Under the pieces are notes generated by a model. It was not told the origin of the DNA and ran no database searches. It was given only the letters and a program-made list of their open reading frames with translations. Made by a program: the position numbers and the translations under genes. 64,000 nt of DNA from a virus: positions 16,645-80,644 of the IMG/VR virus record IMGVR_UViG_3300045110_000102. One strand, given 5' to 3'. This document shows, piece by piece, positions 4,182-64,000 of the stretch (the stretch's first letter is position 1; every line of letters begins with the position of its first letter).

Positions 4182-4739
4182 GTGGCCGACAATCCCTACT
4201 ACGACGTCAACGAGGAGATGTGGCCAGACCTGAAGTATGGCCGCATCGTTCTCCACCCGGTCCGCATTGGAATGGATCGCTACACCGGCAAGATGCTGAC
4301 CGGGTGGAATCACGTCGTCCAAAGCATGGTGCTGATCTTCGCGACACGGTTTCACGAGCGTGTGCTGCGTCGCTGGGTCGGCTCATTCGTCCCGCATCTA
4401 ATCGGCAACAACGCGACCGAGACCACCATCGCGCGGTTCTACTGGGCGATTGCAACGGGGCTCGATCTCTGGGAGCCGAACTATCGCATTCAGCGTGTGC
4501 GCGTCGGCAATCGCGACAGCGGCTCATCGCTGACATCTACTGAAGAGCTTCGCACCGGTCATCTCACCACGTCGATGGATGGCGTCTATCGTCCGCGCGG
4601 TCACCTCGGCAACGACGATCCAGAAGTGCGCCGGGCCATCGGTCTGACGTCGCGCGGTTATAATTTGTGGGAGCGCCAGCCCGGCTACATTCAGGGCGCG
4701 CCGCCTGATCTCATTGGTGAGCCGGGGAGAACGCCTTGA
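4182..4739 (+). CDS. Baseplate wedge protein, gpW / T4 gp25 family
   Basis: A 185-aa protein with GTG start (GGAG seven bases upstream). Residues about 38-110 carry the family pattern: TGWNHVVQSMVLIFATRF, then RVLRRWVGSFVPHLIG and AIATGLDLWEPNYRI. The core of gpW/gp25 proteins, which link baseplate wedges to the sheath initiator, has the same order of elements. The 75-residue C-terminal extension is unusual for the family. The gene overlaps the following J-like gene by four bases. Confidence 0.85.
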   Translation: MADNPYYDVNEEMWPDLKYGRIVLHPVRIGMDRYTGKMLTGWNHVVQSMVLIFATRFHERVLRRWVGSFVPHLIGNNATETTIARFYWAIATGLDLWEPNYRIQRVRVGNRDSGSSLTSTEELRTGHLTTSMDGVYRPRGHLGNDDPEVRRAIGLTSRGYNLWERQPGYIQGAPPDLIGEPGRTP

Positions 4740-5698: not shown

Positions 5699-7152
5699 GC
5701 GACATCGTCACTGAGGGACTCATTCAGGCACCGGGCGCGAAGCTGCTCTATCGCGCATCGACCGGGCTTGAGAAGGCGATGGCCGACGTCGATGGCGAGC
5801 GGCTGATCGGCACCTATGCCGAGATCATCATCGACCAGTGGGACCCGTACCGCATCAGCTACACGAACCTGCCCTATCTCGCGTATGCGATGGGCACGCT
5901 GCTGTGGGAGGATGGCTGGAGCGAGAGCACGCAGCGCGAATGGACTGCGGTGCAGTTCACCTTCAAGAGCCTGCGCGGCACGCTCGCTGGCATCGAGATG
6001 GCGCTGGAATATTCCGGTCGCGACTTCTCGCCGCCGCAAGGTTACACGGTGCAAGAGGCGCTACGACCGCCGCAAGCGTTCTTCGCTTCGCCCGGTCTTA
6101 CCAAGGAGGAGTTCGATTTCTGGATTCACAAGATGCCGGAGATCAGGATCACGTTCTCCGAGGGCGTCGGCTGGGACAGCGAAGACGTCCTGTTCTGCGG
6201 TGACGGTGGCGCTCAGTGGTTCGTCGGGCTTGATGATGGTGAGGCGCTGCATGGTCGCAAGGCTTTCCTTCGAGTGCGCGGCAAAGATATCCCGTTGCAG
6301 GTTTACACGTTCACCAAGGAGATCAACAGCAAGGTCTCGATTGACTACGAGCGCATCTGCATTCCCGGCCTCGCCGGTCCAGCGTTCACGCAAGACGACT
6401 TCGTCAACGACGAGAACTTCGTCTGCGCTGAACTGAAAGTGCCGCAGCTTGTCACGGTGCGGATCGACGGCAGCTACGATCACGAACAGAGCGCGCTGCA
6501 TCTCGACACGGTCGTGCCCGGCATGGACCCGATTGATGTGCGCTACGAACGCGACAGCGACATCGGCTGGGGCAACAGCTTCTTCTTCGTCGGCGATTGG
6601 TCTGATCATCGCAACACGCTGGAGCGTGACGATCCGCACCCATCGCATCCGATTGAGATCGCGCCGCCGATCACGCCAGAGCATCCGATAGCTTATCCGG
6701 AGTCAGGTCTGCCGACACAGCCGCCGCCGCTCCCGACGCAACCGGTGCCGATTGTCTACTACGCTGACGCTGGCTTCGATGCCGCGCGCATGTTGGCTGA
6801 CCGCATCTTCCTGAACGATCCGGCGATTGCTGCGGCGATCACCGGCGGCGTCTCATTCGTTGGTGTCGATTATGTCTCGTGGCCGCAGTACACGGCTGAC
6901 CTGATGATCGACCTGCATATGAATGATGATTTCTGGAGTTGGTTCGCTGACGAAGGCTACACGAACGACGATAACTACTTCGCCAGTCACGTTGATCTAC
7001 AAGACTTCGACCGCGCATGCCGCGCTGTCGTCGTCGCACAAGCGCTGCGAGATCGAGTGCGCACCGCCTATGACCCGACACGCTTAATCGAACTTCGCGA
7101 ACGCGCTTGGACAGAAACCACGGTTGATCAGCAGGTCCCGAACTTGCTTTGA
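5695..7152 (+). CDS. Tail protein I-like baseplate protein, extended
   Basis: A 485-aa protein that overlaps J by four bases. Residues about 50-105 have the gpI pattern (NLPYLAYAMGTLLWEDGW, then REW and the helical segment with KSLRGTLAGIEMAL). P2 gpI is under 200 residues. Here the extra 280 residues include a Pro-rich hinge (about 335-350, TQPPPLPTQP) and a further domain. The extension may connect to fibres, because the two fibre genes follow. Confidence 0.8.
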   Translation: MSDIVTEGLIQAPGAKLLYRASTGLEKAMADVDGERLIGTYAEIIIDQWDPYRISYTNLPYLAYAMGTLLWEDGWSESTQREWTAVQFTFKSLRGTLAGIEMALEYSGRDFSPPQGYTVQEALRPPQAFFASPGLTKEEFDFWIHKMPEIRITFSEGVGWDSEDVLFCGDGGAQWFVGLDDGEALHGRKAFLRVRGKDIPLQVYTFTKEINSKVSIDYERICIPGLAGPAFTQDDFVNDENFVCAELKVPQLVTVRIDGSYDHEQSALHLDTVVPGMDPIDVRYERDSDIGWGNSFFFVGDWSDHRNTLERDDPHPSHPIEIAPPITPEHPIAYPESGLPTQPPPLPTQPVPIVYYADAGFDAARMLADRIFLNDPAIAAAITGGVSFVGVDYVSWPQYTADLMIDLHMNDDFWSWFADEGYTNDDNYFASHVDLQDFDRACRAVVVAQALRDRVRTAYDPTRLIELRERAWTETTVDQQVPNLL

Positions 7153-7165
7153 GGAGAGACAGCAG

Positions 7166-9568
7166 ATGGAACGCAAAGTAAATATTCAGGACTGGCAGAA
7201 GGTCACGGTCGAAGACTTTAACAACTTCGGTCTTTTCCCCCGCGCGTCCTTCGATCACATCGTCGTCGATACGCTGATCCCCGACATGGCCTTCACCGGC
7301 TTCGCTGTCGTGCAGACAGCACCGGCTGTGGTGACGGTCGGCAGCGGTCGGCTCTATCACGCTGGTCTTGTGTTCTACAACGACAACGAAGGCGGCACCT
7401 CGCTCGATCTGCTCAGCGTGCTGCCGGTGGTGACGCGGCGCTATGTCGGCGTGGTCGCATGGGGCCAAGAGATCGAGACGGACACCGAGCCGCGAACGTT
7501 CCTCACCGATCCGGTGACGCGCGCGACTGTGGCGCGTGTTGTCTCCACCGAGTCGCGGCGCTGGACGAACATCTCCACCGTGGTCGGCGCTGAAGGTCCT
7601 GACCCGCAGAAGCCAGCCATCGCATCGAATACGCTGGTGGTGGCGTGGATACTTCTCGACTCGACCGGCATCGTTGCGATCCAGATGGTTGAAGACAATC
7701 GCGCGCCGAACCTGCGCGATCTCGACAACCGCATGAACGAGAACGATGCATGGCGCATCCGCACGACGTCGCGCCTCGATACGCTGGCGACCGATCTCGC
7801 CGCGCTGGCTGCACGTCTCGCTGGCACCGCATCGATGCAACTGGCGCTGCGGCTTGCCGCAGACATCGCGCGCGTGAAGGAGGAGCTTAATCTCCCCGAC
7901 AGCTACACCTCATGGGGCGCGGATCACTTCCTGACCAACGACGAGTCCGACGTGCACGACGTGCCGCCGAACCCGGACTACATCGCCAAGGTCGAGGAGG
8001 GCATTCGCTTCCCGAACGCTGCAGAGCGCGACTCGCAGATGTCGCTGTTGAACCCGCTCGATCCGGCGGTGATCAATCAGGCGAACTTCGTGCTGCCGCT
8101 CTATCACGAGAAGACACGGCTCGAAGTGCTCGGCAACGACAGCGAGTTGTCGATCTCGCAGTATCAATTCCAAACCATCTCTTGGGAATTGTGCACGAAG
8201 ACCCGCACGCGCATCCGCTTTGGCACGCCGATGTATGTTTGCTACAACGGCTGCTGGTGGTTCGCGCCATCCGGTCAGGACTGGCAAACGTCAATCGGCA
8301 TGGGCGAATGGGCGAACGGCTTCGGCGGCTCGACCGGCATGACGCCGAACACCGATCTGATCTACGATCCGATCCGCAACATCCTGACGCGTGGCACCGA
8401 GACATTCCAAATCCTTGACGTGCAGGATGTCTCGACGCACACCGTGCTGCGCATCGCGCAGTTCTGGGTCGATGAGATCATCGACTCCTACTACTGGCGG
8501 CAGATCATCACCGTTGAAGGTCTCAGCGGTTCGGTGGTGGCGCAGTCGTTCCTGAACTCGCAGGGCGGCTGGCTGACGTCGGTGGAATTGTTCTTCACGC
8601 GCATCGCCACATCCGGCGACGTGCACGCGCTGATCGTCGAGTGCAACGACGTCGGCGCGCCGAACTATCAGAAGGTGATCGCACGCTCGACCATCGTGTC
8701 GGACCTGCTGCGCTCGCCACCGTTCGCGACGAAGATCGGATTCCTTCCGACCTATCTGGCGAAGGGCAAGCGCTACGCTGTCGTGCTGCAGACGCCCGGC
8801 AATCACTTCGTGTCGCTGGTGCACAACAACAAGTTCGCGCAGGGCTCGCTGTTCACATCGACGGACGGCGCGTGGGCCTCGGGCGACCTGACCAAGGACA
8901 TCGCACTGCGGCTGAACTTCGCGGAGTTCGAGTCCACCCGCTGCACCGTGCAACTGGCTGGCCTCGAATTGAATGGCGGCATCGCGGCCATCGATCTCAA
9001 CTTCGATTCGACGCGTCCGCCGGGCACCACGATCTCATTCGAGATTCAGCACAACGGCGTGTGGGTGCCGCTCGGCTACTACGACAGCAATCCGCTGGTC
9101 GCGTTGCCGCCGCTGCTGCCACTGCGCTGCATCCTTGTCGGCACCACCGATGAGATGCCGGGCATCGGCGTCGCTGCGAATTCGCGCTCGCTGACGTCGC
9201 GGCCTCGCAATGACTTCCGTCACATCTCGACGGTGCGGACGATGCCGAACCCGGTCAACACGGTCTACGTGGACTTCCGGCTCGACGCGTGGCGCGGTGA
9301 AGACAGTGCTGGCTACGAGTACCACACCTTCACGCCAGCGCTGTTGATCGGTGCGGGCTTCCAGAACGTGGTGCCGCCTGCAGTGATCGAGGATGAAGTC
9401 GCGCCGGACGATCCGACAGGATTGCGTCGTCGCTGCATCTGGGACCTTGCGTCGTTCGGTGGCACACCGATCACGGCTTACAAGATCAGATGCGAGGGCT
9501 GGTCGGACAACGCGCTCGCGCTGTTCCACGTTTCCGAGCGTGTCGATATCGGCATCAACCTCATGTGA
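7166..9568 (+). CDS. Large fibre/baseplate structural protein (DUF4815-like N-terminus)
   Basis: An 800-aa protein. The chosen ATG at 7166 has GAGGAGAG upstream; an in-frame codon at 7124 would run into the I-like gene. The N-terminus MERKVNIQDWQKVTVEDFNNFG and the following beta-rich region with VTVGSGRLYHAG resemble phage DUF4815-type proteins that anchor fibres to the baseplate. A helical segment (about 190-240) precedes repeated beta-sandwich-like regions with WYSG-type jelly-roll features. It lacks a chaperone-like ending. Confidence 0.7.
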   Translation: MERKVNIQDWQKVTVEDFNNFGLFPRASFDHIVVDTLIPDMAFTGFAVVQTAPAVVTVGSGRLYHAGLVFYNDNEGGTSLDLLSVLPVVTRRYVGVVAWGQEIETDTEPRTFLTDPVTRATVARVVSTESRRWTNISTVVGAEGPDPQKPAIASNTLVVAWILLDSTGIVAIQMVEDNRAPNLRDLDNRMNENDAWRIRTTSRLDTLATDLAALAARLAGTASMQLALRLAADIARVKEELNLPDSYTSWGADHFLTNDESDVHDVPPNPDYIAKVEEGIRFPNAAERDSQMSLLNPLDPAVINQANFVLPLYHEKTRLEVLGNDSELSISQYQFQTISWELCTKTRTRIRFGTPMYVCYNGCWWFAPSGQDWQTSIGMGEWANGFGGSTGMTPNTDLIYDPIRNILTRGTETFQILDVQDVSTHTVLRIAQFWVDEIIDSYYWRQIITVEGLSGSVVAQSFLNSQGGWLTSVELFFTRIATSGDVHALIVECNDVGAPNYQKVIARSTIVSDLLRSPPFATKIGFLPTYLAKGKRYAVVLQTPGNHFVSLVHNNKFAQGSLFTSTDGAWASGDLTKDIALRLNFAEFESTRCTVQLAGLELNGGIAAIDLNFDSTRPPGTTISFEIQHNGVWVPLGYYDSNPLVALPPLLPLRCILVGTTDEMPGIGVAANSRSLTSRPRNDFRHISTVRTMPNPVNTVYVDFRLDAWRGEDSAGYEYHTFTPALLIGAGFQNVVPPAVIEDEVAPDDPTGLRRRCIWDLASFGGTPITAYKIRCEGWSDNALALFHVSERVDIGINLM

Positions 9569-9586
9569 TCAGGGAGAACTCAACAG

Positions 9587-10072
9587 ATGGCTACCGATAG
9601 ATTCCCACAGCGCAACGCGACGATGCCGATGAGCGAAGAGCGCATCAGAGCCGCGCGCGCCAAGCTCGATCCCGGTCATGCATCACCGGCGAACTACCCG
9701 GCATCTGACGGCAAAGGATCGCGCCGCGAGATACGCAAGGGCGAGTGGCTCGATGATCGCGTGATCACACCGAACGCACGCCCGACACCGTCGCCGCACA
9801 ATCCTCCGCCGCTGCCAGACAAGCGAGAGCTTCCGGCGTCGTACGATCCGGCGATGGTGTACAACGTCAAGTTCGGCTCGCCTTGTCAGTATGTCGGGCG
9901 CATTCTCAATCCCGGTCGCGCGTACAAGATGACCGGCAATGTCTGCGCCGATCCGAACGTGCAGCCGAAGATCATCGACGCAGTGCTGATCGGGCCGACA
10001 CCAGCGCCGCCCGATGTCGGACCGACCACGACGAAGAGCGTCGCGCCAACCACGGCAAAGAAGAAGGCCTGA
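9587..10072 (+). CDS. Hypothetical fibre-associated protein
   Basis: A 161-aa protein with GGGAGA before ATG. The first 85 residues are Pro/Arg-rich and probably disordered. A short folded region (about 86-135, YDPAMVYNVKFGSPCQYVGR) follows, then a Pro/Thr/Lys tail. It sits between two fibre genes and may join or decorate them. No family recognised. Confidence 0.6.
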   Translation: MATDRFPQRNATMPMSEERIRAARAKLDPGHASPANYPASDGKGSRREIRKGEWLDDRVITPNARPTPSPHNPPPLPDKRELPASYDPAMVYNVKFGSPCQYVGRILNPGRAYKMTGNVCADPNVQPKIIDAVLIGPTPAPPDVGPTTTKSVAPTTAKKKA

Positions 10073-10075
10073 CCG

Positions 10076-11911
10076 ATGGCACTGAAGCGGCTCGATGAAG
10101 AGTTCGAACTGAAGCCCGGCACGCAGTTGCTTCCGTACATGAAGCGATTGCTGCCGTCGCTTGAGGCTCGCTTCCAAGACTTGGAAGAAGTGGACCGCAT
10201 GCTGACCAAGATCGGCGAGGACATTCGTGCGGCGGCATTGCTGCGCATGAATGACATCCTGATCCCGGCAACCGAAGACATCCTCGCGGTCACCAAGCTC
10301 GGCTTCCTGCTCGCTCCGATCTCGACACCGTACACGCTCGTGCTCGGCTACATGGCGATGTACGTTGACGAAGGCGTGCAGCGCGACACGTTCACGCCGT
10401 CGCCTTATCTGATCATCGAGCACGTCGATGCGCCAGACGATTACGCCATCGCGCGGCTGGTCAACTACGATCAGAAGACCGGCATTCTTGAAGTGAACAT
10501 CACGGCGATCCACGGCTCGCCCGGTCCGCATCCCTACATGGTGTCATCGACGCCGGGCATGGCGGATTCAGCGAAGCTCTACCACGACGCCATCACGCCG
10601 ATGCACGAAGTGGTGGTGTCTGACCACGAGGAGGTGGTCTTCCTGCACGCCGAGATCATGGCCGCAGCGCAAGCGCTGGCGGAGTCTGGTCTCGATGCTT
10701 ACGCGTTCATTCGACGCGACGGCACCGTGCCGTTCGAGGCGCTGCAGGTTGGTCTCGCGCCGCCGTCGAACGCGAACGACAACTACATTCCGACCAGCGG
10801 ATGGGTGCGCTCGCGCATCGTCGAGTACGTCAACACGGCGGTGAAGAAGACCGGCGATGTGATGACCGGTCCGCTCACGATCCCGGCGTATCCGACGCAA
10901 GACGCGCACGCTGCCAGCAAGAAGTATGTCGATGATGCGTTCGGTGCTGGCGGCACGATGCGCGGCGACCTGACGATCAACGACAGCTATCCTTCGCTGC
11001 TGATGAAGCCGACAGGCCCGCAGCAGGATCGATTGCTCGAAGGTCTCAACTATGACGGCGCGCGCCGGTGGGTGATGGCGCTCGGCGATGGCTCTGACGA
11101 CTTCGCGCTGTATCGCTACGGCGACGCGGGCAACTATCTCGGCACCGGGCTGCACATCCGGCGCAGCGATGGCGGCGTGACGCTCGGGCCGATCTCCACC
11201 GGCTATCTCTCGAACGTCGGCGGCATGAACATCGACGGCGATCTTTATCTCCATCGCGGCACCAGCGGCACCGGCGTGGTCTTCCTCAATCACACCGGCA
11301 GCGCGTATCACTATTGGGACGGCGCGACGCACACCTTCACCGGTGGCGGCGGCGCGTTCCACGGTGGCATGAACGTGCATCACCTGAACTGCTACAGCAT
11401 CAGCACGCAGGGACACTGGACGACGACGTGGGGAATGACGTCGCACGGGCCGATAGACATCAACGGCGCGCTGACCATCCGTGGCGACATGGTCTTGGAG
11501 AGTCCGAACGCGAACTACATTCGGTTCTGGGATGGCACATGGGGCAACATGTACATCCACCACAACGACGACAACATCGGCTTCCTCGGTCACGACGGCG
11601 GTTGGCGCGCGTACGTCAACAACTCCTCGCAGATGTGGCTCGGCGCGTACGGATGGATTCACGACTACGTCAACAACACCGCGAGCCATCATGCGTGGAC
11701 GGCAGCGAACCATCGCTACAATGAAGTGGTCTACAGGATTCGCTTCGCGCATCTCGGCGACGTGCAGCACTACTACAACCAATTGCAGGAGCCGTGGGGC
11801 GCAGGCGTGATCACCGGCATCACCGGTTGCTACTCGTCCTACTACGTGATCGGTCGCTATCGGCAATGCCACATGATGATCGCGGGCGGCTGGTACGCTG
11901 CAAGCTACTGA
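10076..11911 (+). CDS. Tail fibre, likely receptor-binding
   Basis: A 611-aa protein. After a helical N-terminal domain (1-180), residues about 255-290 carry KKTGDVMTGPLTIPAYPT and DAHAASKKYVDD, a collar repeat common in phage fibres. A GTMRGDLTIN repeat and glycine- and histidine-rich shaft repeats follow. The aromatic C-terminal tip (last about 60 residues, with ITGCYSSYYVIGRYRQCHMM) is probably the receptor-binding head. It starts four bases after the preceding gene. Confidence 0.85.
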   Translation: MALKRLDEEFELKPGTQLLPYMKRLLPSLEARFQDLEEVDRMLTKIGEDIRAAALLRMNDILIPATEDILAVTKLGFLLAPISTPYTLVLGYMAMYVDEGVQRDTFTPSPYLIIEHVDAPDDYAIARLVNYDQKTGILEVNITAIHGSPGPHPYMVSSTPGMADSAKLYHDAITPMHEVVVSDHEEVVFLHAEIMAAAQALAESGLDAYAFIRRDGTVPFEALQVGLAPPSNANDNYIPTSGWVRSRIVEYVNTAVKKTGDVMTGPLTIPAYPTQDAHAASKKYVDDAFGAGGTMRGDLTINDSYPSLLMKPTGPQQDRLLEGLNYDGARRWVMALGDGSDDFALYRYGDAGNYLGTGLHIRRSDGGVTLGPISTGYLSNVGGMNIDGDLYLHRGTSGTGVVFLNHTGSAYHYWDGATHTFTGGGGAFHGGMNVHHLNCYSISTQGHWTTTWGMTSHGPIDINGALTIRGDMVLESPNANYIRFWDGTWGNMYIHHNDDNIGFLGHDGGWRAYVNNSSQMWLGAYGWIHDYVNNTASHHAWTAANHRYNEVVYRIRFAHLGDVQHYYNQLQEPWGAGVITGITGCYSSYYVIGRYRQCHMMIAGGWYAASY

Positions 11912-11920
11912 GGATTAACG

Positions 11921-12358
11921 ATGCTGGAATATATCGATCACGGCGACTGGGTTGCCTACAGGCCGGAGAAACACTGGCTGTTTGATCACAATCCGAGAGT
12001 GATGTTCTGCAAGCGCGTGTCCGATGGCGTTGATTGGTACGACTATCGCAGAGAGGTCGGCATCGCGACGTCAGTGTCGCTGAAGATGACGCTGAAGCAG
12101 TTCGAGGGTCGCTGGCAGGTGATGACCACGAACCGCGAAGGCGAGATGATCTGGCCGGAGAACACCAAGCTGATCGAGTTCGATTACGACGGCGAAGATC
12201 ACGAGCGACTGTGGCGCAAGTTCTTCGATCTGAAGACGCGCGAATTCACCGATCCCGAGCCAATGTCGGAGCGACCGTTCGTCGAAGCGCTCGCGAAGGA
12301 GCTTGGCGTCGATCAGGACAAGCTCATCAAATTCTTGGAAGGGAGCCGACATGGCTGA
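11921..12358 (+). CDS. Hypothetical protein, possible fibre assembly factor
   Basis: A 145-aa protein directly after the fibre gene, where fibre chaperones often lie. The C-terminal 40 residues (PFVEALAKELGVDQDKLIKFL) are helical. The rest alternates strands with many Trp and Tyr. I do not recognise a known chaperone family. It overlaps the next start by 8 bases. Confidence 0.6.
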   Translation: MLEYIDHGDWVAYRPEKHWLFDHNPRVMFCKRVSDGVDWYDYRREVGIATSVSLKMTLKQFEGRWQVMTTNREGEMIWPENTKLIEFDYDGEDHERLWRKFFDLKTREFTDPEPMSERPFVEALAKELGVDQDKLIKFLEGSRHG

Positions 12359-12675: not shown

Positions 12676-14445
12676 ATGGGCGATCCGGTATTTGGTATTA
12701 GCATTCGCAAAGTCGATGAAGGCGCGCGGCCCGTACTTGCCGCCGACCTTTCCACCATCGGACTCATCGGTCCCTCACCGCTGGCCGATCAGGTTATCTA
12801 TCCGCTCGACACTCCGGTGTTCCTGAACTCGAACGATCACAACAAGACGAAGAAGCTCGGCTACTCCGGCTACCTCGCCGACGCTGTGCGCGCGATCAAC
12901 GATCAGCTTGGCGAGACGCAGTTCGCTGGCCGCATCGTTGTGATCCGCACTGCGCAGGGCACCGACCCTGATCCCGCACTGGCGCTGCAGCAGACCATCA
13001 GCAACATCGCTGGCGACTCGCTGCAGGGCACCGGCATGTGGGCGTTCCTCAAGTCTGCAGCGAAGCTCGGCTTCACGCCGCGCATCCTGCTTGCGCCCGG
13101 CTACACCTCGCAGATGGCGAACGGCATCGGCAGGATCGAGCGCACCGCGCCCGGCCAGAACTACGTGATGGATCATCTCTATCCCATCGAGTTCGAGGGC
13201 GGCGGCATCAACGTGGTGCCCGCGACCGGCCACGCCATCGGCATGAGCAACGGCACGCTCGGCCCGGTGGTGCTCGAACTGCCCGGCGCTTGGTACGACA
13301 GCCCGCCGACGGTGGTCGTTCCTCCGCCCGGCTACACCTGCACGGCTGCGGCCATCGGGACCGGTGGTCTCGGCTATACGGTCGGCGAGCAACTGATGAT
13401 GCCTGACAACGTCATCCTCAACGTTGACTCGATTGATGACGTCGGCGGCAACGGCGCGATCCTCACAGCGAGCGTCGTCAATGCTGGCTTCATCGTCGGC
13501 ACCACCGCGCCGCCGACGGTGCCGGTCGAGCCGCTGTCATCGACTGGTGCTGGCACCGGCGCGACCTTCACCGAGACGTGGGACGTGAGCGGCGAGCTTG
13601 CAGCGTACGAAGCCGAGGTGATGGCGGGTGCGAATCCGATCGTCGCCAGCGCGACGCCGATCTGCAATCAGTTGCTCGGTCACATGATCGTCGAGAGCGC
13701 AGGCTCTTCGATGCAGAACGACTTCGACTGGCGTGAGACGATGCAGAGCCATCGCCTGATCGCACTGTCGGGCGGCTGTCGTGTGATGGACCCGATCACG
13801 TCGTACATCGTGATCCGTCCGCTCGCGCCGCGTATGGCTGGCATCATGATCCGTCGCGATCACGAGACCGGCGCGCCGTTCCACTCTGCGGCGAACCAAG
13901 CGGTGCAGGGCATCGTCAGCCCGAACCGCGACATCGGATTCAATCTGACCGACAGCGCGAACGAAGCGCAGGAGTTGCTCGGAGCGAACATCGGTGTGCT
14001 GGTGCGTGGCGAGATCGGCGACGACTTCGCAATCGCGTCGGGCGGCTTCGTGCTGATCTCGACCGACAACGTCGGCGAAGACCCGATTTGGCAAATGTAT
14101 AATGTCATGAGAGGACGCGATTACATTCACCTCGGGATGCTCAAGACGCTGCGCTTCTATCTCGGTCGCTACAACATCATCGGTCACACGGTGCAGGCGA
14201 TCCTGAACACCATGCAGTTCTTCCTGCGCGACCTGCATGCCGATCAGCACATCCTCGGCTACAAGGTGAACTTCCGCACCGAGGGCAACTCGCCGGAGCA
14301 GATCAGGCTCGGCCATCTCACCGTCGGCTTCAAGGCAGAAGAGCCGCCGGTCCTCAAGCATCTCACCATCGAGTCTTCGCGCTATCGCGAAGCCATCGAC
14401 GAGATGGTCGCCGATCTCGCAACGCAGTTGAATCTCGCTGCGTAA
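12676..14445 (+). CDS. Tail sheath protein (FI-like) with an inserted domain
   Basis: A 589-aa protein. The start MGDPVFGISIRKVDEGARPV, the region FAGRIVVIRTAQG, and the C-terminal WQMYNVMRGRDYIHLGMLKTL plus the final strand exchange region are typical of contractile sheaths of the P2 FI kind. Residues about 205-300 hold an insertion with GYTCTAAAIGTGGLGYTVGEQL and an ILTASVVNAG repeat, a decoration-type beta module seen in several phage structural proteins. The tube gene follows. Confidence 0.9.
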   Translation: MGDPVFGISIRKVDEGARPVLAADLSTIGLIGPSPLADQVIYPLDTPVFLNSNDHNKTKKLGYSGYLADAVRAINDQLGETQFAGRIVVIRTAQGTDPDPALALQQTISNIAGDSLQGTGMWAFLKSAAKLGFTPRILLAPGYTSQMANGIGRIERTAPGQNYVMDHLYPIEFEGGGINVVPATGHAIGMSNGTLGPVVLELPGAWYDSPPTVVVPPPGYTCTAAAIGTGGLGYTVGEQLMMPDNVILNVDSIDDVGGNGAILTASVVNAGFIVGTTAPPTVPVEPLSSTGAGTGATFTETWDVSGELAAYEAEVMAGANPIVASATPICNQLLGHMIVESAGSSMQNDFDWRETMQSHRLIALSGGCRVMDPITSYIVIRPLAPRMAGIMIRRDHETGAPFHSAANQAVQGIVSPNRDIGFNLTDSANEAQELLGANIGVLVRGEIGDDFAIASGGFVLISTDNVGEDPIWQMYNVMRGRDYIHLGMLKTLRFYLGRYNIIGHTVQAILNTMQFFLRDLHADQHILGYKVNFRTEGNSPEQIRLGHLTVGFKAEEPPVLKHLTIESSRYREAIDEMVADLATQLNLAA

Positions 14446-15777: not shown

Positions 15778-18700
15778 ATGGGCGCTAACGACCAAGAGAC
15801 AACGGTCCGCATCACCGCCGAGGACAACACCAGCAAAGCGGTGACGTCTATCGGCGCGCGGTTCTATGCCCTGCACAAGGAAGCGCAGGCGATGTTCCGT
15901 GGCTACGCTGACGGCGCGCTGGTCAGCACCAAGTCCATCGAGATGTTCGCGAAGAAGAACAAGACCACCTTCGATGAAGCCTTCCAGCAGATGCAGAAGC
16001 TGCACGACGCCGAGAACAAAGCGTTCAAGGCGCGGCAGGACGCTGCCGCCAACACGGACAAGGACAACACGAAGCAGGCGGCTGGCGCGAAGGGTGTCGC
16101 CAAAGAACTGGCGGGGATGGCCGCGCGCTATCTGTCGGTCGCCGCTGCCGTCGATATCGTGCGGCGTTCGTTCCTCGGCTTTGCCGACTTCGACAAGAAG
16201 ATGCGGCTGATCCAGAACGGCACCGACGCGACCAAGGAGCAGATGAAGGAATTCTCCGCTGTCATCAAGCAGGTCTCGGCGGAGACCGGCGCAAGTCTCG
16301 ACGACGTCGCCGAAGGCTTCAAGACATTGCAGGAGACCGCGAACCTCTCGCTCGCCGAGACGCAGAAGATATTGCCGGAGCTTGCGGTGCAGGCCGATGG
16401 CATGGGCGTCAGCGTCACGCAGCTTGGTCGGCTGATGGGCGAGATGATGCGCAACTTCAACATCCCGGCTGCGGATGCCAGCCGCGCGATGGAGATCATC
16501 TCGCACGGCGCGCGCAAGCTCGGGCTCAACGTCGGCGATCTCGGCCCGGCGATCTCTGGTCTCACGTCGTCGATGGCGGAGTGGGGATACACCGGGGCCG
16601 AAGGTGCGGCGCGCATGGTCGCGATGCTCGGCGAAGCGCGCAAGGCGACCGGCGATTCCTCGAAGGCCGCGCAGGTTCTCAGCAACATCTTCGAGAAGCT
16701 CGGCTCGGGACAACTGGCAGAAGCGCTCGGCAAGAATCCGCAGATGCTCTACAAGCAACTGAAGGAGATTCAAGCCGCAGGCGGCGACGTCATGGGCGCG
16801 ATTGTCGCCATGATGGAAAAGGCGACCGATCAGCGCAAGGTGGCTGAAGCCATCGGCGTTCGCGACATCAAGGTCGTGCGCAAGCTGACCGAGTCGTGGG
16901 GCGACATGACCGGCAAGATCACCGAAGCGAAGAACGCGCAAGGTGGTTACGCTGCAGGATTGAACACGCTCAACAGCGCGCAGGGTCGCGTCAATCAGTT
17001 GATGGCGAGCATCGTCGAGTTGATGAACTCGCTCGGCGCACTGCTCGATGCGCTCGGCGCAACCACCGCACTGAAGTTTCTCGCCGATCAGATCATGGCC
17101 GCAGTCAAAGGCATGGAGCGTCTGACCGAGTTGTGGAAGTGGATCACCGGGCAGGAGATCAAGAAGCCCGAATGGATTCCGCAGAGCGGCGCGGAGTTCA
17201 GGCATCGGCTGTGGGGCTCGCGCGAGTATGGCGGCTTCGGCGAATTGAAGCGACCGTGGGATCGCGAGAAGAACGCGCCGGGCATGACGAAGGAAGAGAA
17301 GGCGGCGGAGCAGAAGCGCATCGAGTCGATGTCGCCGCAAGAGAAGGCGCTGTACGAGCAGGGCTTGAAGCGCCAGCGCGAACTGAACCAGCAGATCGAG
17401 ACCACGACCGGCAACATCAAGAAGATGTCGTTCGCGTTGCCGGACACGCCGGGCTTCAAGGTGTGGAAGACCGCGCTCGGTGTCCCGCAAGGCGGCGGCG
17501 CTCCGAGTGCTGGCTATGGTGGCAGCGGCGATGCGTCGGTGCTTCCTGCATCGTACTCGCCGGGCGGCGGTCTCGTGCATCGCGCGAGCTACGGCGGCGG
17601 CGACGGCACGCCAATCGGCAATGCATTCTCGCGCGCGAACGCGATGGGCGCGGGCACACGCAACGTCGTGGACTTCGCTGCGGCGCGCGCGCGTCGCGTG
17701 TCGTATGGCGGCAGCGCGGACGCGCGCACGCTCGATGCTGATTATCATCCCGGCGAAGGCGGTTACCTCGGCGGGCCGGGCGGCGGTGTCGGCCCCGGCT
17801 ACGGTGGGCACGGTGCAGGCGGTCCGGGCATCCCCGGCATGGAGCGCGCTGGTCCCGGCGGCTATGGCTCATCCTATGGCGGCGGCAGTCAACCGCAGAT
17901 GACGGGGCGCGGATCGTCGCTGCCGGGCGCTGGCGGAGAGCGCACGCACGCGAGCCTTCCACCACCGAGCGGACCGCAGTCGCCGACTGAACCGTCTGGT
18001 GCCGTCGATGAGCACGGGCACGCGCACACCGGTGTCGGCGGCTATAACTTCATGGGCAGCGAACGCGCACGGAGGATGGGTTACAACATCCAGCACGGAA
18101 GCCGCGAAGCGCAGATGCCGTTCGCGACTGGCATTCCGAAGGATGCATACGGCGGCAGGCTGTCAACGATCCGCGCGAACAAGTACGCCGGACCGGACAT
18201 GGCGGGCTTCCTGAAAGACCTGCACGAGGCTGGCGCGCCGCTCGATCAATTCGCTGGTGCCTACGTCAACAAGCCACGGCAACACGGCTACGGCAACGCG
18301 CTCGACATCGAGACCGGCTTCGGCAGCGGACCGGACAACAGTCCAAAGCTCCACGCGTGGGCGATGAAGAACCCGGAGCTATTCAAGAAGATTCAAGCGC
18401 AGCGTCATATGCGCAACCTCGATCCGACATCCGGATCGACGGTGAAGGATTGGGGACACTTCGAGTGGACGCCGACCGGCAGAGCGCCAGTGGGCCAGAC
18501 GCAGACCGCGTCCGCCGATGCAGCAAACCCGATGGGTACGCCTGACACTGCGCCAGCGGCGGGCGGAACGGCATCAGGAGACTTCAAAGGGAATCGCGTC
18601 AACCAAGACGTCCTGAAGACGCGCATTCAACAAGCCAACTCCGAATGGATGAAGGACCCCAAGAATCAACAGAAGATTTTCCGAACGCTTCAGGCTGAAG

Positions 18701-19494
18701 GCGGCGGCAACATAGCTGCCAACTTGGAGCAGATGTCGAACTACGCAGCGTCCAGAAACAAGAGCCTGCAACAGGTTGTGGAAGCTCGGGGCACCAAACA
18801 ATTCTATGGTCCGCTTCGGCGTTTCCACGGTGATCCCGGCGCAGGGCGAATGATGCCGCATGAGCGTGATGCGTACAACAGCGCATGGACTCCACAGAAG
18901 CAGGCGGCGTGGGACAAGGCCAGCAACGAGGTGTTCTCTGGCGGGTCCAACAGAATCAATTACGCAACCGATCAAGGAACGGTCGGCGATCCGAACTATG
19001 ACCCGAACAGGATGACCAACGTCGGCGGCAATATGTTCGGTGTTCAACCGGGCACTGGAAAGTGGGTTAGTGCGCAGCGAGGTAAGCCACAAGTCGAAGG
19101 TCCAGTCACCGCTGTCGCCGAAGCGCCGAAGACTGAGACGCCAGCGACGACGCAGACTGCAGAGGCAGGGCAAGACAACACGCCGCTCGGTCGCGCGTTC
19201 GCAGCGAGCCAACGCAGCAGGACGCGCGGCATTACCAGAGACCCGGTGCACGATGCTCAGATGGAGCGCCATCGCGAGGAGACCGAGGCGCTGAAGAAGA
19301 AGGACGCCGCAGCACCAGCGGAGGAGCCGTCGATCCCAGAGCGAGCGAAGAACGAAGTCGAGAAGCCGCTGCAGATGAATGTCAAGGTCAACCAGAACGA
19401 CGTGCAATTCGCGCGCTCATCGATGAAGCGACAGGCTGATCGTGAGGTGCGCGAAGCGCGGTGGAGTTCGTACAGCGACATAGGTGCTGCATGA
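15778..19494 (+). CDS. Tape measure protein with peptidase-like domains
   Basis: A 1238-aa protein. Residues 1-400 are long helices with TP901-type features (LMGEMMRNFNIPAADASRAMEI-like repeats, GLTSSMAEWGYTG). About 560-750 is Gly-rich and flexible. About 750-900 looks like an M15/VanY-type peptidase: HGYGNALDIE near 835 and DWGHFEW near 890 supply the expected His-x6-Asp and Asp-x2-His ligands. About 965-1075 (FRTLQAEGGGNIAANLEQMS and QFYGP) resembles SleB-type wall hydrolases. It sets tail length and probably opens the peptidoglycan at injection. Confidence 0.9.
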   Translation: MGANDQETTVRITAEDNTSKAVTSIGARFYALHKEAQAMFRGYADGALVSTKSIEMFAKKNKTTFDEAFQQMQKLHDAENKAFKARQDAAANTDKDNTKQAAGAKGVAKELAGMAARYLSVAAAVDIVRRSFLGFADFDKKMRLIQNGTDATKEQMKEFSAVIKQVSAETGASLDDVAEGFKTLQETANLSLAETQKILPELAVQADGMGVSVTQLGRLMGEMMRNFNIPAADASRAMEIISHGARKLGLNVGDLGPAISGLTSSMAEWGYTGAEGAARMVAMLGEARKATGDSSKAAQVLSNIFEKLGSGQLAEALGKNPQMLYKQLKEIQAAGGDVMGAIVAMMEKATDQRKVAEAIGVRDIKVVRKLTESWGDMTGKITEAKNAQGGYAAGLNTLNSAQGRVNQLMASIVELMNSLGALLDALGATTALKFLADQIMAAVKGMERLTELWKWITGQEIKKPEWIPQSGAEFRHRLWGSREYGGFGELKRPWDREKNAPGMTKEEKAAEQKRIESMSPQEKALYEQGLKRQRELNQQIETTTGNIKKMSFALPDTPGFKVWKTALGVPQGGGAPSAGYGGSGDASVLPASYSPGGGLVHRASYGGGDGTPIGNAFSRANAMGAGTRNVVDFAAARARRVSYGGSADARTLDADYHPGEGGYLGGPGGGVGPGYGGHGAGGPGIPGMERAGPGGYGSSYGGGSQPQMTGRGSSLPGAGGERTHASLPPPSGPQSPTEPSGAVDEHGHAHTGVGGYNFMGSERARRMGYNIQHGSREAQMPFATGIPKDAYGGRLSTIRANKYAGPDMAGFLKDLHEAGAPLDQFAGAYVNKPRQHGYGNALDIETGFGSGPDNSPKLHAWAMKNPELFKKIQAQRHMRNLDPTSGSTVKDWGHFEWTPTGRAPVGQTQTASADAANPMGTPDTAPAAGGTASGDFKGNRVNQDVLKTRIQQANSEWMKDPKNQQKIFRTLQAEGGGNIAANLEQMSNYAASRNKSLQQVVEARGTKQFYGPLRRFHGDPGAGRMMPHERDAYNSAWTPQKQAAWDKASNEVFSGGSNRINYATDQGTVGDPNYDPNRMTNVGGNMFGVQPGTGKWVSAQRGKPQVEGPVTAVAEAPKTETPATTQTAEAGQDNTPLGRAFAASQRSRTRGITRDPVHDAQMERHREETEALKKKDAAAPAEEPSIPERAKNEVEKPLQMNVKVNQNDVQFARSSMKRQADREVREARWSSYSDIGAA

Positions 19495-56889: not shown

Positions 56890-58353
56890 ATGGTGCGCTT
56901 ATCACCACCGAAGGAAGAGTACTGGCCCGCAGATGTAAGCGCCGTTGGTGAAGTACCTGCAGCAATCGCACGTGAGGACTTCTACGCGTTCCGCAAGATC
57001 ATCCGACCGCGCCTGATGTTCGCGTGGTGGCAGCGCGATGTTGCGAAGAACCTGATGGACTTCTACGACGACCTACTCGCAGGCAAGCGACCAGCCATCG
57101 TGCTGATGGCACCACCGCAACACGGCAAGACCGAGCAGGTGGCGGACTTCATCGCGTGGGCATCGGGCAGAGACCCGAGCTTGAAGACGATCTTCGGCAG
57201 CTACTCGGAAGACCTTGGCGTGCGCGTGAACATGACGCTGCAGCGTACGTTCGAGAGCCCACGCTATCGCGCGGTGTTCGGCAACACGCGCATCAACAGT
57301 GAGAACGTATCGAGCGATGCCGGTCGATGGATGCGCAACACCTCGCTGCTTGAGTTCGTGAAGCGCGAGGGATCATTCCGCAACACGACGGTGATGGGCC
57401 AGATCAACGGCATGGGGCTGAGCCTCGGCGTGATCGACGATCCGATGAAGGGCCGAGCCGAAGCGTCATCGAAGACGATACGCGACAAGACATGGAGTTG
57501 GTTGACCGATGACTTCTTCGGTCGCTTCACTGACGACGCTGGGCTGATCATGATCATGACGCGCTGGCACCTCGACGATCCTGCGGGCCGATGGCTCGAA
57601 CACTTTCCGAACACGCGTGTGCTGCGCTATCCCGCCATCGCTGAAGAGGACGAGGAATTCCGCAAGAAGGGCGAGCCGCTCTTCCCTGAGCACAAGTCGC
57701 TGGAGTTCTTGCTCGACCGCAAGAAGGTGCTGACCGAAGCGGGATGGCAGAGCATCTATCAGCAGCGCCCCATCGCTGCAGGTGGCGACATGTTTCCGGG
57801 CGAGCGCTTCCGCGTGATCAGCAGCGTTGATCGCAACGCCGTGCGCCGCTCGATCCGCTACGTTGACAAGGCGGACACGCAAGACGGCGGCGCGTTCACT
57901 GCGTGCGCACTGGTGCACGACATGAAGGACGGCACGACCGTCGTCGAGGACATGCTACGCGGACAATGGACTGCGCTCGAACGTGACACGCGCATCCTGC
58001 AGGCAGCAGAGGCCGACAAGAAGACGTGCCCGCGCTACTCGATCTGGTTCGAGCAAGAGCCCGGCAGCGGCGGCAAGGAGTCAGCGGAGTCCAGCGTGCG
58101 CAAGTTCAGGGGCTTCAACGTTCAACTCGACAAGGTGACAGGGTCGAAGGAAGTGCGGGCCGAGCCGTACGCAGCGCAGGTGCAGGCCGGTCAAGTGTCA
58201 CTGGTTGCGGGATCGTGGAATAGATTGTTCATCGAAGAGCACGAGCAGTTTCCGTTCGGCAAGTACATGGATCAGGTGGACGCGACTGCAGGTGCGTTCA
58301 ACAAGCTCGCATCGCAAATCGGGAGTTATGACCGCACGATGTCGTGGGTCTGA
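56890..58353 (+). CDS. terL: Large terminase subunit (TerL)
   Basis: 487 aa. Walker A APPQHGKTE (74-82) and Walker B LGVIDDP (179-185) with coupling motif TRWH near 225 form the packaging ATPase. The C-terminal region with YVDKADTQDGGAFTACALV and later acidic residues is the RNase-H-like nuclease. It translocates DNA into the prohead at the portal. Confidence 0.95.
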   Translation: MVRLSPPKEEYWPADVSAVGEVPAAIAREDFYAFRKIIRPRLMFAWWQRDVAKNLMDFYDDLLAGKRPAIVLMAPPQHGKTEQVADFIAWASGRDPSLKTIFGSYSEDLGVRVNMTLQRTFESPRYRAVFGNTRINSENVSSDAGRWMRNTSLLEFVKREGSFRNTTVMGQINGMGLSLGVIDDPMKGRAEASSKTIRDKTWSWLTDDFFGRFTDDAGLIMIMTRWHLDDPAGRWLEHFPNTRVLRYPAIAEEDEEFRKKGEPLFPEHKSLEFLLDRKKVLTEAGWQSIYQQRPIAAGGDMFPGERFRVISSVDRNAVRRSIRYVDKADTQDGGAFTACALVHDMKDGTTVVEDMLRGQWTALERDTRILQAAEADKKTCPRYSIWFEQEPGSGGKESAESSVRKFRGFNVQLDKVTGSKEVRAEPYAAQVQAGQVSLVAGSWNRLFIEEHEQFPFGKYMDQVDATAGAFNKLASQIGSYDRTMSWV

Positions 58354-59473: not shown

Positions 59474-59673
59474 CGTTCGAAGAGATCAAGGACGCAGTGT
59501 CGATCATGAAGCAGCGCGTCGGCAACGTCGCACCGCTGGAGATGTCGGCGGAGCGCCACATGGGATTGATCCAGTTGATCGTTGACAGCGAGGCGCTGAT
59601 GCGCGGCTTCAAGCCGACGCGAACGCGCGAAGAGATCGAAGCTGCGATCACTGAAGAGATGAGCATTCGCTGA
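59461..59673 (+). CDS. Hypothetical helical protein, 70 aa
   Basis: ATG at 59461 (or 59470, which gives ATGA coupling). MARMTFEEIKDAVSIMKQRV, NVAPLEMSAERHMGLIQLIV. It directly precedes the portal gene, overlapping it by one base. Unknown. Confidence 0.5.
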   Translation: MARMTFEEIKDAVSIMKQRVGNVAPLEMSAERHMGLIQLIVDSEALMRGFKPTRTREEIEAAITEEMSIR

Positions 59674-62600
59674 TGTATCTGTTCGATACGTTCACCAACT
59701 TCCTGTCTGGTCTCGGCGTCTATGGCCGGGACAAGATGACTGCGTATCGGTACGTCAAGCCGATCTGGACGCGCGAGCAGTTGGAGTCGAGCTTTCAATC
59801 GGACTGGATCGCACGCAAGGCGATCAGCATTCCTGCGCACGATGCGACGCGCGAGTGGCGCGCATGGCAGGCCGAGCAGCCGCAGATCGAATTGATCGAG
59901 GCGACCGAGGAGCGCTTGCATCTGCAGTTGAAGCTGCAGCAGACGTTGACGAAGGCGCGCATGTACGGCGGCTGCTGCATGCTGATCGGCGTCGATGGCG
60001 ACATGGCCAGCGAGCTACTGCCCGAGAGCATCCAGAAGGATTCGCTGAAGTTCATTCACGTGCTTGCGCCGCATCAGTTGCAGGTCGAGAGGCTGATCAA
60101 GGACATCTCGTCGCCGTACTACGGACAGCCCGAGTACTACACGCTGCGCGATGACGACAAGAAGATCAACGCGGTGAACATCCATCCGAGCCGCATGGTG
60201 CGACTGCTCGGGCTCGACGCTCCAGACCCGATGAGCAATTACGGGTGGGGCGATCCGATGCTGCAGACAATTCACGACGCGGTGTCGAGCGCTGGCACCG
60301 TGATGCAATCCATCGCGACGCTGATCAGCGAAGCCAAGGTTGACGTCATCAAGATTCCCGGGCTCACGGAAATCTTCTCGACCGTCGATGGCACGCAGCG
60401 AATGATCAAGCGCTTCACCGAAGCGAACGTCGCGAAGTCGGTCATCAACGCCGTGCTCGTCGATGCCGAGGAAGATTGGCAACGCATCACCGTTCAGTTC
60501 AACGGGATGCCCGAGGTTCTGCAGATGTATTTGCAGATCGCCGCAGGCGCTGCAGACATCCCGGTCACGCGTTTTCTCGGCATGTCGCCTGCTGGTTTGA
60601 ACGCGACCGGCGATGCGGACATGCGCAACTATTATGATCGCATCCACAGCGATCAGGAATTGCGCTTCACGCCAGCGCTGGAGAAGCTCGACGCAGCGAT
60701 CATTGCATCGGCGCTCGGCAAGCACGACCCGAACATCTTCTATGAGTGGAATTCACTCTGGCAGATGGACGAGACGCAGAAGGCCGCGATTGCATCGCAG
60801 AAGGCGGCGGCGTCGATGGTCGATGTCAACGCCGGACTCATTCCGTTCGATGCACTGGCGAAGGGCCGCGCCAATCAGTTGATCGAAGACGGCACATACC
60901 CGGGGCTCGAATCTGCGCTCGAAGAGTCGGTGATCGATGAAGAGATGATCGCCGAGCAGACAGAGGCCGGGCACGAGCGCTCGCTGATGCCGCCGCCCGA
61001 TCCGAACGCTGATCCGAACGCCGACCCGAATGATCCAGAGGCGGACAACGACAACGCACCGCCGAAGAAGAAGCGCCCGGCGTTCGCAGCAGCGGACAGC
61101 GGCATGTCGTTCTTTGATCGCATCGTTGATGGTGTGATCGAGCGCTTGACCGATATCAGCGCGTGGAGCGAGGAGAAGCATTCGCGCGGCCAGCCAGAGA
61201 ACGCGGGGCAGTTCGGTCCCGGTGGTTACGGTGGCGGCACATCGGAGAAGACGAAGACCGGACCCGGTCGCACCGCACGCGGGTCAGCGCGCAAGGAAGC
61301 CAGCGCGAAGCTGAAGGAGCGCGTGCAGGCCGAGCACAAGTCACGCGGCAAGAAGGGCGCGCACGCAGAGGCGGAGGAAATCCGCATGGGGCGCGCGAGC
61401 GCGTTCGTGTCGCCGAACGTTGCGAGCAATCTCGATCTCAAGGGTGCAGAGAAGGGGATCAGGGGCAAGCAGCAGGCAGCGCTGCGCGAGGCGTCGGACT
61501 ACATCAACAAGCAGACCGGCGTTGACGATGGCCGCGACATCGATGTGATCGGCGCGTGGAAGGATGGTGCGGAGAACAGTCTGCTCACCACCAGCGATGC
61601 ACCGTGGGACAACTTCAAGCTCGCTGCTGTGATGAAGGCGCACCTCGCTGATCAGAAGTCGGTGCTGTTGTTCGATGAGCAGGAGGGCGGCAAGACCGTG
61701 CTCGCGCACTTCAACGCCAAGGGCAAGGTCGATGAGATACATCGCAACCTGCTGGAGGACGGTCTCGATCAGCACACCATCGTGCCAGTGAAGGGCGGCG
61801 CGCGCGTTTATGTGGTAGACCTTGACGGTAGCCACTCAGACGCAATTGAAAAAGGAGCAGCACGCTATGGCGACGCCAACAAAGTCACCGTCAAGTTCGG
61901 GCGCGGCGAGTTCATCGGGACTGACAAAGAAGACGGAAGCGATAGTGAACAAAGGGACAGCGCGCGAGAAGTATATGAAGCTGCTATCAACGAATCCCCG
62001 GTTTCAGACGCAAGGGAAATCTGGAAAGAAGCTAGCGATACTTGGGGCGAGACCGCTCGGGGCATCGACGAAGTAAGAGCGCTCGGCGCGATCAGGCCTG
62101 CAGGCAAGGACCCGCATGGCCGATTGACGATGCAGCCGGGGACGAAGTTCGACATCCCCGAGCTTGAGAAGCAGACCAAGGCGAGCGTCAAGGCGGCGAG
62201 CGCGAGCGCGACCGCGAAGGCGCTGCCGAACAGCAAGGCCACGCATCCCGCGACGATTGCATCGCGCGAGGTGACCGCGACCGACAAGCAGGCGCTGGCA
62301 CCGAAGGGCGTGTATGGCCAGCCCGATGTTGCGACGATGAAGCTCGACACCGAGCGCTTCGCGCACGACATCGCGGTGATGGGCAACGAGAAGTTCTATT
62401 CCAACTTCCGCGCCGAAGACTTCGCGGAAGGTCCCGATGTTGCTGCCGACAAGATGGTGCAGCAGATGACGGACAATCTCAAATTCCTGTACCAGTTCGC
62501 GGATCACGACACGCAGGTGTGGTACGACGGCGCGCGTGCACTGGTCGATGATCGCGCCAAGCTCTACGGCTTCAACGATGCGAGCGTCGCTGGCGTGTAC

Positions 62601-63485
62601 GCTGCGCTGTCACCAACGAAGGACTGGGATCAGAACGTTCACATCGCCGATGCAACGATGCGCGTCTACAAGGAGAAGCAGGACTTCAAGTGGGACGACG
62701 AGATGTCCGAGAAGTCGAAGACCTTGTGGTCGAAGGCGAACCAGCCAATCGTCAAGGCGGTCGCGGGCAAGAAGCTGAGCGAGTGCGCCGACGCCGAAGA
62801 GAAGGCGCTGTGGATCAGGACCTACTGCGAGACCAAGGAGAGTCGCAGCTATCGCGAAGTGCTGCCGAACGGCGCGCTCGGTGGTGTGGTGTACAACGCA
62901 GACGGACGCACGCCGACGCCTGCGGTGTGGCAGTCGCTGCCGTCAGCGAAGAACGCGGTGATGGCGCTCGAAGCCAATGGTGATCGCGAGAAGATCAGCG
63001 AAGCGATGGGCACCGCGCACAAGGTGCGCTCGTTCTACAACAACATCCTTGATCCGCACTCGGCGAACGAAGACGTCACCATCGACACGCACGCGGTCGG
63101 CGCTGCGCTGCTGCGTCAACTGACAAGCTCTGATGCTGCAGTGATGCACGACTTCGGCAACGCGCCGCTGCAGAAGGACAAGCCCGAGGGCTGGGAAGCA
63201 ATCGGCAAGTCGAAGAAGACCGGACTGTCGGGATCGTATCCGGTTTATGCTGACGCATATCGCAAGGCCGCGAAGGAGCTTGGCATTCAGCCGCGTCAAT
63301 TGCAGTCGGCGGTGTGGGTGGTGAAGCGTCTCACGTTCGGTGCTGCATCGGAGAAGGTGCAGGCGCAGATCGAGGATGTCTGGAAGGGCTATCACGACGG
63401 CAAGGGATCGCTCGACAGCGTGCGCAACGAGATCGCGAAGATACTCGACCTGAAGAAGCCGTCGAAGGAGAACGCGCCGCCATGA
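59673..63485 (+). CDS. Portal protein (DUF1073 type) with large C-terminal fusion
   Basis: 1270 aa. Residues 1-450 are a DUF1073/Acb1-associated portal: AYRYVKPIWTREQLESSFQS, ARKAISIPAHDATREWRAWQ, ARMYGGCCMLIGVDG, and RFLGMSPAGLNATGDADMRN. A Pro/Asp linker (about 448-480) and WSEEKHSRGQPENAGQFGPG (about 497-516) lead into extra domains: one at about 600-780 (DVIGAWKDGAENS, HTIVPVKGGARVYVVD, EFIGT, EQRDSAREVYE), and one at about 950-1250 (YAALSPTKDWDQNVHIADAT, TIDTHAVGAALL) that resembles DUF7178. Portal proteins are normally 400-700 residues. Confidence 0.85.
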   Translation: MYLFDTFTNFLSGLGVYGRDKMTAYRYVKPIWTREQLESSFQSDWIARKAISIPAHDATREWRAWQAEQPQIELIEATEERLHLQLKLQQTLTKARMYGGCCMLIGVDGDMASELLPESIQKDSLKFIHVLAPHQLQVERLIKDISSPYYGQPEYYTLRDDDKKINAVNIHPSRMVRLLGLDAPDPMSNYGWGDPMLQTIHDAVSSAGTVMQSIATLISEAKVDVIKIPGLTEIFSTVDGTQRMIKRFTEANVAKSVINAVLVDAEEDWQRITVQFNGMPEVLQMYLQIAAGAADIPVTRFLGMSPAGLNATGDADMRNYYDRIHSDQELRFTPALEKLDAAIIASALGKHDPNIFYEWNSLWQMDETQKAAIASQKAAASMVDVNAGLIPFDALAKGRANQLIEDGTYPGLESALEESVIDEEMIAEQTEAGHERSLMPPPDPNADPNADPNDPEADNDNAPPKKKRPAFAAADSGMSFFDRIVDGVIERLTDISAWSEEKHSRGQPENAGQFGPGGYGGGTSEKTKTGPGRTARGSARKEASAKLKERVQAEHKSRGKKGAHAEAEEIRMGRASAFVSPNVASNLDLKGAEKGIRGKQQAALREASDYINKQTGVDDGRDIDVIGAWKDGAENSLLTTSDAPWDNFKLAAVMKAHLADQKSVLLFDEQEGGKTVLAHFNAKGKVDEIHRNLLEDGLDQHTIVPVKGGARVYVVDLDGSHSDAIEKGAARYGDANKVTVKFGRGEFIGTDKEDGSDSEQRDSAREVYEAAINESPVSDAREIWKEASDTWGETARGIDEVRALGAIRPAGKDPHGRLTMQPGTKFDIPELEKQTKASVKAASASATAKALPNSKATHPATIASREVTATDKQALAPKGVYGQPDVATMKLDTERFAHDIAVMGNEKFYSNFRAEDFAEGPDVAADKMVQQMTDNLKFLYQFADHDTQVWYDGARALVDDRAKLYGFNDASVAGVYAALSPTKDWDQNVHIADATMRVYKEKQDFKWDDEMSEKSKTLWSKANQPIVKAVAGKKLSECADAEEKALWIRTYCETKESRSYREVLPNGALGGVVYNADGRTPTPAVWQSLPSAKNAVMALEANGDREKISEAMGTAHKVRSFYNNILDPHSANEDVTIDTHAVGAALLRQLTSSDAAVMHDFGNAPLQKDKPEGWEAIGKSKKTGLSGSYPVYADAYRKAAKELGIQPRQLQSAVWVVKRLTFGAASEKVQAQIEDVWKGYHDGKGSLDSVRNEIAKILDLKKPSKENAPP
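61867..62076 (+). CDS. Nested gene inside the portal gene, 69 aa, other frame
   Basis: AAAAAGGAG lies 9 bases before ATG, nearly the leader used elsewhere in this genome. MATPTKSPSSSGAASSSGLT, then NKGTAREKYMKLLSTNPRFQ reads like a real basic protein. Within this stretch (portal residues 732-801) the portal frame loses its G/C-rich third positions, as expected where two frames are both under selection. Confidence 0.45.
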   Translation: MATPTKSPSSSGAASSSGLTKKTEAIVNKGTAREKYMKLLSTNPRFQTQGKSGKKLAILGARPLGASTK

Positions 63486-63733: not shown

Positions 63734-64000
63734 TCCAACCCGCAGCGCTGGACTGCGCAGCCAAGGGCGCGCGCTGGTGACGCGCAAGGTGCACGCGTTG
63801 CATCAGGGACTGCGCATTGCATTCGGCGAGCAGGATGTTGCAGGCCTGCGCAAGAAGGAGCCGCAGCCGGTGGCGTTCATCAACTGGGATGAGAGCTACG
63901 CCGTGCGGCTTGATCGGTCCGACGAGATCACGCGTCGGCACGTGCGAGGCGCGATGCTGTCGCCGCCGGGATGGTTGAGCGAGATCATCGAGCGCGCGAT
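63726..64000 (+). CDS. 5' part of a gene, possible head morphogenesis protein
   Basis: ATG at 63726 overlaps the previous gene by 8 bases; the frame runs off the right edge. MRDPTRSAGLRSQGRALVTR and AFINWDESYAVRLDRSDEIT are seen. Its place after portal suits a minor head protein, but the diagnostic part is missing. Confidence 0.45.
   Translation, partial: MRDPTRSAGLRSQGRALVTRKVHALHQGLRIAFGEQDVAGLRKKEPQPVAFINWDESYAVRLDRSDEITRRHVRGAMLSPPGWLSEIIERA

Follow-up and report, generated by a model that had tools for sequence, protein, structure and literature searches.

The IMG/VR virus record IMGVR_UViG_3300045110_000102, of which we analysed positions 16,645 to 80,644 (64,000 nucleotides, hereafter the window, to which coordinates refer unless another locus or the record is named), encodes a portal protein that is fused, within a single open reading frame (ORF), to two extra domains: a conserved middle domain and a C-terminal domain of the uncharacterised family DUF7178. 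The DUF7178 family carries an invariant Lys/Asp pair and is found repeatedly joined to unrelated head proteins. We lean towards the reading that the fusion is a portal-tethered DNA glycosylase/AP (apurinic/apyrimidinic)-lyase-like enzyme, probably delivered with the virion and acting at the start of infection.

Architecture of the portal fusion protein

The fusion protein spans 1270 amino acids (59673..63485, + strand), without internal stop. Its portal core, residues 1–418 (59673..60926, +), matches Phage_portal_3 (PF06381, which we take to be the former DUF1073) over residues 36–380 with an E value of 1.7e-98 and 330 bits, against a curated Pfam cut-off of 33.8; it also matches phrog_146 (E 1e-114) and the solved Pam3 portal 8HDS, which aligns to residues 5–418 (E 2.4e-91). 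The portal part is 42.9% identical to that of Rhizobium phage RHph_I72 and 40.3% to that of Pam3, and the portals of Rhizobium and Aminobacter phages range from 39 to 43% identity. An earlier note made from the letters of this DNA alone had proposed a DUF1073-like portal core followed by about 770 extra residues; the fused core was confirmed in one intact ORF and the extra region is real, although its size, counted past portal homology, is nearer 800–850 residues. Homology to PHROG portals extends to residue 466 (nt 61070).

An assembly artefact is ruled out, since a second IMG/VR contig is 100% identical across 8.4 kb including the fusion, and since other relatives are fused as well. In the related loci L011/L090, which come from a different metagenome and are ~60–66% identical, the portal, the middle domain and DUF7178 are kept in one ORF, with ~70 N-terminal portal residues sitting in another frame. 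The portal and middle domain form a single ORF also in L091, L092, L093, L099 and L102, and in L112 the middle domain occurs with a different portal family (PF04860). In L096–L098, the cargo module has an ORF of its own, whose start lies 9 bases past the portal stop; thus, both fused and split forms exist. This split arrangement favours the view that the ORF yields a normal portal plus free cargo, by translation or by processing, the fusion being a coding arrangement and not a tether. So do an in-frame ATG with a Shine–Dalgarno-like sequence at position 61386, just 5′ of the middle domain, and the presence in the genome of a DUF2213 prohead protease. However, the other fused relatives have no start at that place, so that the internal start was rejected as a conserved feature; we regard a free product as possible rather than probable. 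As a separate observation, L127 (2539–7947) has a portal whose two portal stretches flank a weak match to Hint (intein-like).

Past the core, a Pro/Asp/Asn-rich stretch and linker (residues 442–577; 60996..61403, +) contains the motif WSEEKHSRGQPENAGQF (residues 498–514; 61164..61214, +), an instance of a recurrent motif of roughly the form E..HPR...G.F. As a regular expression, this motif is present in 29/128 related proteins, with 33 matches vs 0.5 in residue-shuffled sequences, counts that are descriptive because the pattern was written after examples had been seen and the 128 proteins are partly related. This is in line with the earlier remark that the linker resembles those preceding toxins or enzymes in MuF/portal fusions; as to the toxin, nothing points to one in the sense of killing competitors. 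In L143 (5443–8637), three NPxHDERGRF-type linkers were seen by eye between apparent ART-like domains and a metallopeptidase-like domain.

The middle domain (residues 578–800; 61404..62072, +) comprises 223 residues of predicted alpha+beta fold. It is conserved across 58 viral loci, with A15, D54, A56, Q84, K85, F90, G166, R184 and Y191 invariant among 40 sequences, and its AlphaFold2 model has a predicted local distance difference test score (pLDDT) of 94.6 and a predicted TM-score (pTM) of 0.90. A Foldseek search of the PDB gave nothing significant; the best matches, to eIF4E (E 6e-3, TM-scores 0.23–0.28), were not taken as a sign of homology. No match was found in Pfam or PHROG, nor a single one among 50,697 named phage records. 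The middle domain is a new conserved module that occurs in head-protein fusions.

The DUF7178 domain and its likeness to DNA glycosylases

The last domain, residues ~920–1250 (62430..63422, +), had been likened to DUF7178 in the earlier note, and the assignment holds: PF23802 matches with E 1.1e-25 and 91 bits (cut-off 27) in three stretches, the best from residue 927, together with phrog_3842. The AlphaFold2 model, numbered as residue minus 889, has a pLDDT of 92.1 and a pTM of 0.88. As both extra domains are confidently predicted, they appear to be folded and not disordered.

Two residues stand out as candidate catalytic residues. Lys1117 (63021..63023, +) and Asp1138 (63084..63086, +) are invariant in 42/42 long and 41/41 short DUF7178 relatives, and align with Lys120 and Asp138 of endonuclease III in the hhalign register. 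A Lys and an Asp form the catalytic pair of bifunctional HhH-GPD (helix-hairpin-helix) enzymes. In the model, helices 216–223 and 227–237 make up a helix-hairpin-helix-like element (residues 1105–1126; 62985..63050, +) that precedes the Asp, which itself begins the next helix (250–257). The K/D signature and the placement of the helix-hairpin-helix appear alike in DUF7178 and in the HhH-GPD enzymes endonuclease III, Ogg2 and AGOG, whereas sequence profiles and fold searches give no significant match between them.

The family also includes stand-alone proteins of 190–228 amino acids in cultured phages, and a Foldseek search of viral models matched many phage proteins, including stand-alone ones of 198–202 amino acids. 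Stand-alone and fused forms are homologous (hhalign 99.8%, E 2e-30), and PF23802 is matched by all seven stand-alone proteins tested. One of them, gp63 of Synechococcus phage S-CRES3, is annotated as "N-glycosylase/DNA lyase", and "glycosylase" is the annotation in mycobacteriophages DroogsArmy (gp83) and Pocahontas and in Microbacterium phage Cece (gp22). S-CRES3 gp63, DroogsArmy gp83 and Cece gp22 share with the fusion a homologous catalytic-like core with the invariant K and D; they differ from it in being single-domain and unfused, and in lacking the ~60-residue insertion between the two motifs. With profiles of the short family, the local hhalign alignment to endonuclease III lands on K120/D138, and 0/120 column shuffles scored as high.

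Several results weigh against a glycosylase. With long-form or merged profiles the shuffle control is weaker, 0 to 3/120 scoring as high. The HHalign comparison of DUF7178 with endonuclease III and Ogg2 is not significant, with a probability of a few percent at most (for the long form, the global mode is meaningless). No HhH-GPD family in Pfam is matched by either the fused or the stand-alone forms, and hmmsearch of the PDB with long, motif-only and short DUF7178 profiles returned no relevant match. Foldseek of the DUF7178 model against the PDB gave no match at E ≤ 0.001, AGOG being the sole glycosylase among the matches listed, at rank 20 with E 1.8. The annotations, for their part, are third-party labels, probably similarity-based. 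Structure prediction and fold search, which had been proposed as the check on the extra region, therefore yielded confident folds but no significant PDB match, and the helix-hairpin-helix glycosylase fold suspected earlier is left with the K/D register, the helix placement and the annotations, which make the resemblance suggestive only. Given the few-percent HHalign probabilities and the lack of Pfam, PDB or Foldseek support, we propose that DUF7178 probably works like an HhH-GPD glycosylase, without claiming that it belongs to that superfamily.

The same results feed an alternative in which the cargo is still carried in the head and delivered into the cell, and DUF7178, instead of being a DNA glycosylase, is an enzyme or nucleic-acid-binding domain of a new, all-helical type and of other chemistry. 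A high-confidence model without significant PDB match would be expected of such a domain, as would the weak alignment to HhH-GPD families and the invariant W/Y/S/P/W/N/Q residues that DUF7178 has besides K and D. It accounts less well for the K/D register with endonuclease III, which recurs in several independent profiles and withstands the shuffle control, and for the third-party annotations, and we find it somewhat doubtful. Papers on S-CREM1 and CRP-810 glycosylases were set aside, as they concern enzymes of the T4 endonuclease V type and not DUF7178. The literature search found no paper on DUF7178.

Association with head proteins and apparently exchanged cargo

The data on DUF7178 fusions and neighbours are samples of best-scoring loci and not a census. 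The portals with which DUF7178 forms one protein belong to several PHROGs (146, 21 and 537). In L016 (790–6591), the middle domain, DUF7178, a prohead protease and a major head protein lie in one 1933-residue ORF; in L017, DUF7178 is joined to a Zeta toxin and to a stretch with weak likeness to MuF-type minor head proteins, and at other loci to a virion RNA polymerase or an internal virion protein. Among 60 neighbour proteins, internal virion protein is the commonest PHROG (8), and several portal families are also present. From these fusions and neighbours, DUF7178 is, as far as sequence can tell, a recurrent head cargo, and the family context points towards packaging in the head, as the earlier note had surmised. 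Many stand-alone relatives sit outside head modules, which counts against delivery as a rule and indicates that it is not inherent to the domain itself. In Mycobacterium phage Phabba (L179, 1312–3204), a 630-residue DUF7178-like protein lies two genes past the major capsid protein.

The C-termini that follow the portal and middle domain differ among relatives. Where a portal-fused relative has no DUF7178 match in Pfam, its C-terminus is a divergent DUF7178 (~95%, E 2e-8 to 6e-8) that keeps K and D; these C-termini were considered as a bridge to endonuclease III and rejected, since they join the DUF7178 short family and not endonuclease III. The portal C-terminus of RHph_I72 matches Acb1 (7T26; E 3.4e-8), a protein that counters the cyclic-oligonucleotide-based anti-phage signalling system (CBASS), and residues 466–621 of the Pam3 portal (E 9.4e-54). 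The closest cultured portals, those of Rhizobium phages and of Pam3, carry an Acb1-like domain where the fusion protein has its own cargo, and counter-defence domains and DUF7178 thus share one architectural place on the portal. L100 (627–6386) and L132 (2875–8085) in turn have the middle domain fused to Acb1. The L100 fusion additionally has a thioredoxin-reductase-like flavoprotein, and RHph_I72 has a gene for an FAD-dependent oxidoreductase shortly 3′ of its portal gene.

Alternatively, the extra domains might have no role inside the host and serve assembly only, by ordering DNA, scaffolding the head or stabilising the portal vertex. Their fusion to structural proteins required by the virion would fit this reading, but it is improbable given the variable content at this place (DUF7178, divergent DUF7178, Acb1, MuF, Zeta toxin, ART), the related phages without these domains, and the stand-alone DUF7178 outside head modules.

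These architectures can be compared with known systems. The Pam3 portal 8HDS and the Rhizobium phage portals belong to the same portal family, with an enzyme-like domain likewise fused after the portal core; their cargo is an Acb1-like 2H domain of ~155 residues, whereas here it is a new 223-residue domain plus DUF7178, and Pfam gave no Acb1/2H match in the 1270-residue protein. In polyvalent proteins, enzymatic domains on the portal, MuF or head protease are predicted to be injected, and two reports describe, in the passages considered, PBECR, 2H, ART, RelA/SpoT and Nudix domains in such fusions (PMC5512222, PMC9503650); neither text contains the word "glycosylase". In the MuF polymorphic toxins described previously (PMC5576092), a head protein whose gene occupies the portal position likewise bears a variable C-terminal domain. 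Unlike these toxins, which have a MuF domain, neither the fusion protein nor the whole record contains a match to PF04233 (MuF). Effectors fused to portals or MuF proteins are thus known in general, while the pair of domains and a glycosylase-like portal cargo appear to be new.

We propose the following course for a portal-tethered, glycosylase-like enzyme. The portal part would assemble into the ring typical of portals at the vertex of the head. Portal C-termini make up the crown within the head. In phage P1, the portal has a C-terminal crown domain (PMC12810830). As the portal C-terminus faces the head interior, the middle domain and DUF7178, in as many as twelve copies, would be shut in together with the DNA. 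We take DUF7178 to be, most likely, a family of phage enzymes resembling helix-hairpin-helix DNA glycosylases/AP lyases, which would use Lys1117 as the nucleophile and Asp1138 as the catalytic acid. The cargo would then be released, perhaps by the DUF2213 prohead protease cutting at the linker; there is a precedent in P1, where internal proteins are processed by the head protease and ejected along with the DNA (PMC12810830). The enzyme would enter the cell with the genome; it may act against the host's DNA or its defences, or else on bases of the phage genome as it comes in. A narrower version, in which a DNA glycosylase/AP lyase shipped on the portal, at the position where relatives carry an anti-CBASS domain, attacks host DNA or blunts a DNA-based defence, is put forward tentatively.

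On this account, an uncharacterised family present in hundreds of uncultured viruses, as well as in cultured cyanophages, mycobacteriophages and roseophages, gains a place and a testable function, and the portal emerges as a position where cargo, a known anti-CBASS fold included, appears to be swapped between relatives. If DUF7178 is truly a glycosylase, base excision would be added to the known virion-associated activities of phages.

Genome context and host

Upstream of the portal fusion lies the terminase large subunit (56890..58353, +; PF03237 E 5.5e-11, PF17289 E 3.9e-8, phrog_38 E 2.3e-70). The source record is 80,644 bases long and classed as linear; its first and last 86 bases (record start 1–86 vs window 63915–64000) agree except at one position, so that the genome is probably close to complete and circularised. 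The head module resumes at the record start, where the DUF2213 head protease match lies (13561–14043, E 4.9e-50); Peptidase_S78 and the phrog_617 head proteins were searched for in this genome and are absent, the protease being of the DUF2213 type instead.

Scanning 84,980 prokaryote genomes gave 19 loci, the nearest in Bradyrhizobium with 66–70% identity, which suggests an alphaproteobacterial host. The PADLOC and plasmid searches gave no match. Elsewhere in the genome, a tail tape measure protein of 1238 amino acids is encoded at 15778–19494, and two long record ORFs, 4342–7254 and 7254–12335 (L282), resemble each other at the N-terminus ("YGEVYxDYxWDGEKW") and could be paralogous tail fibres.

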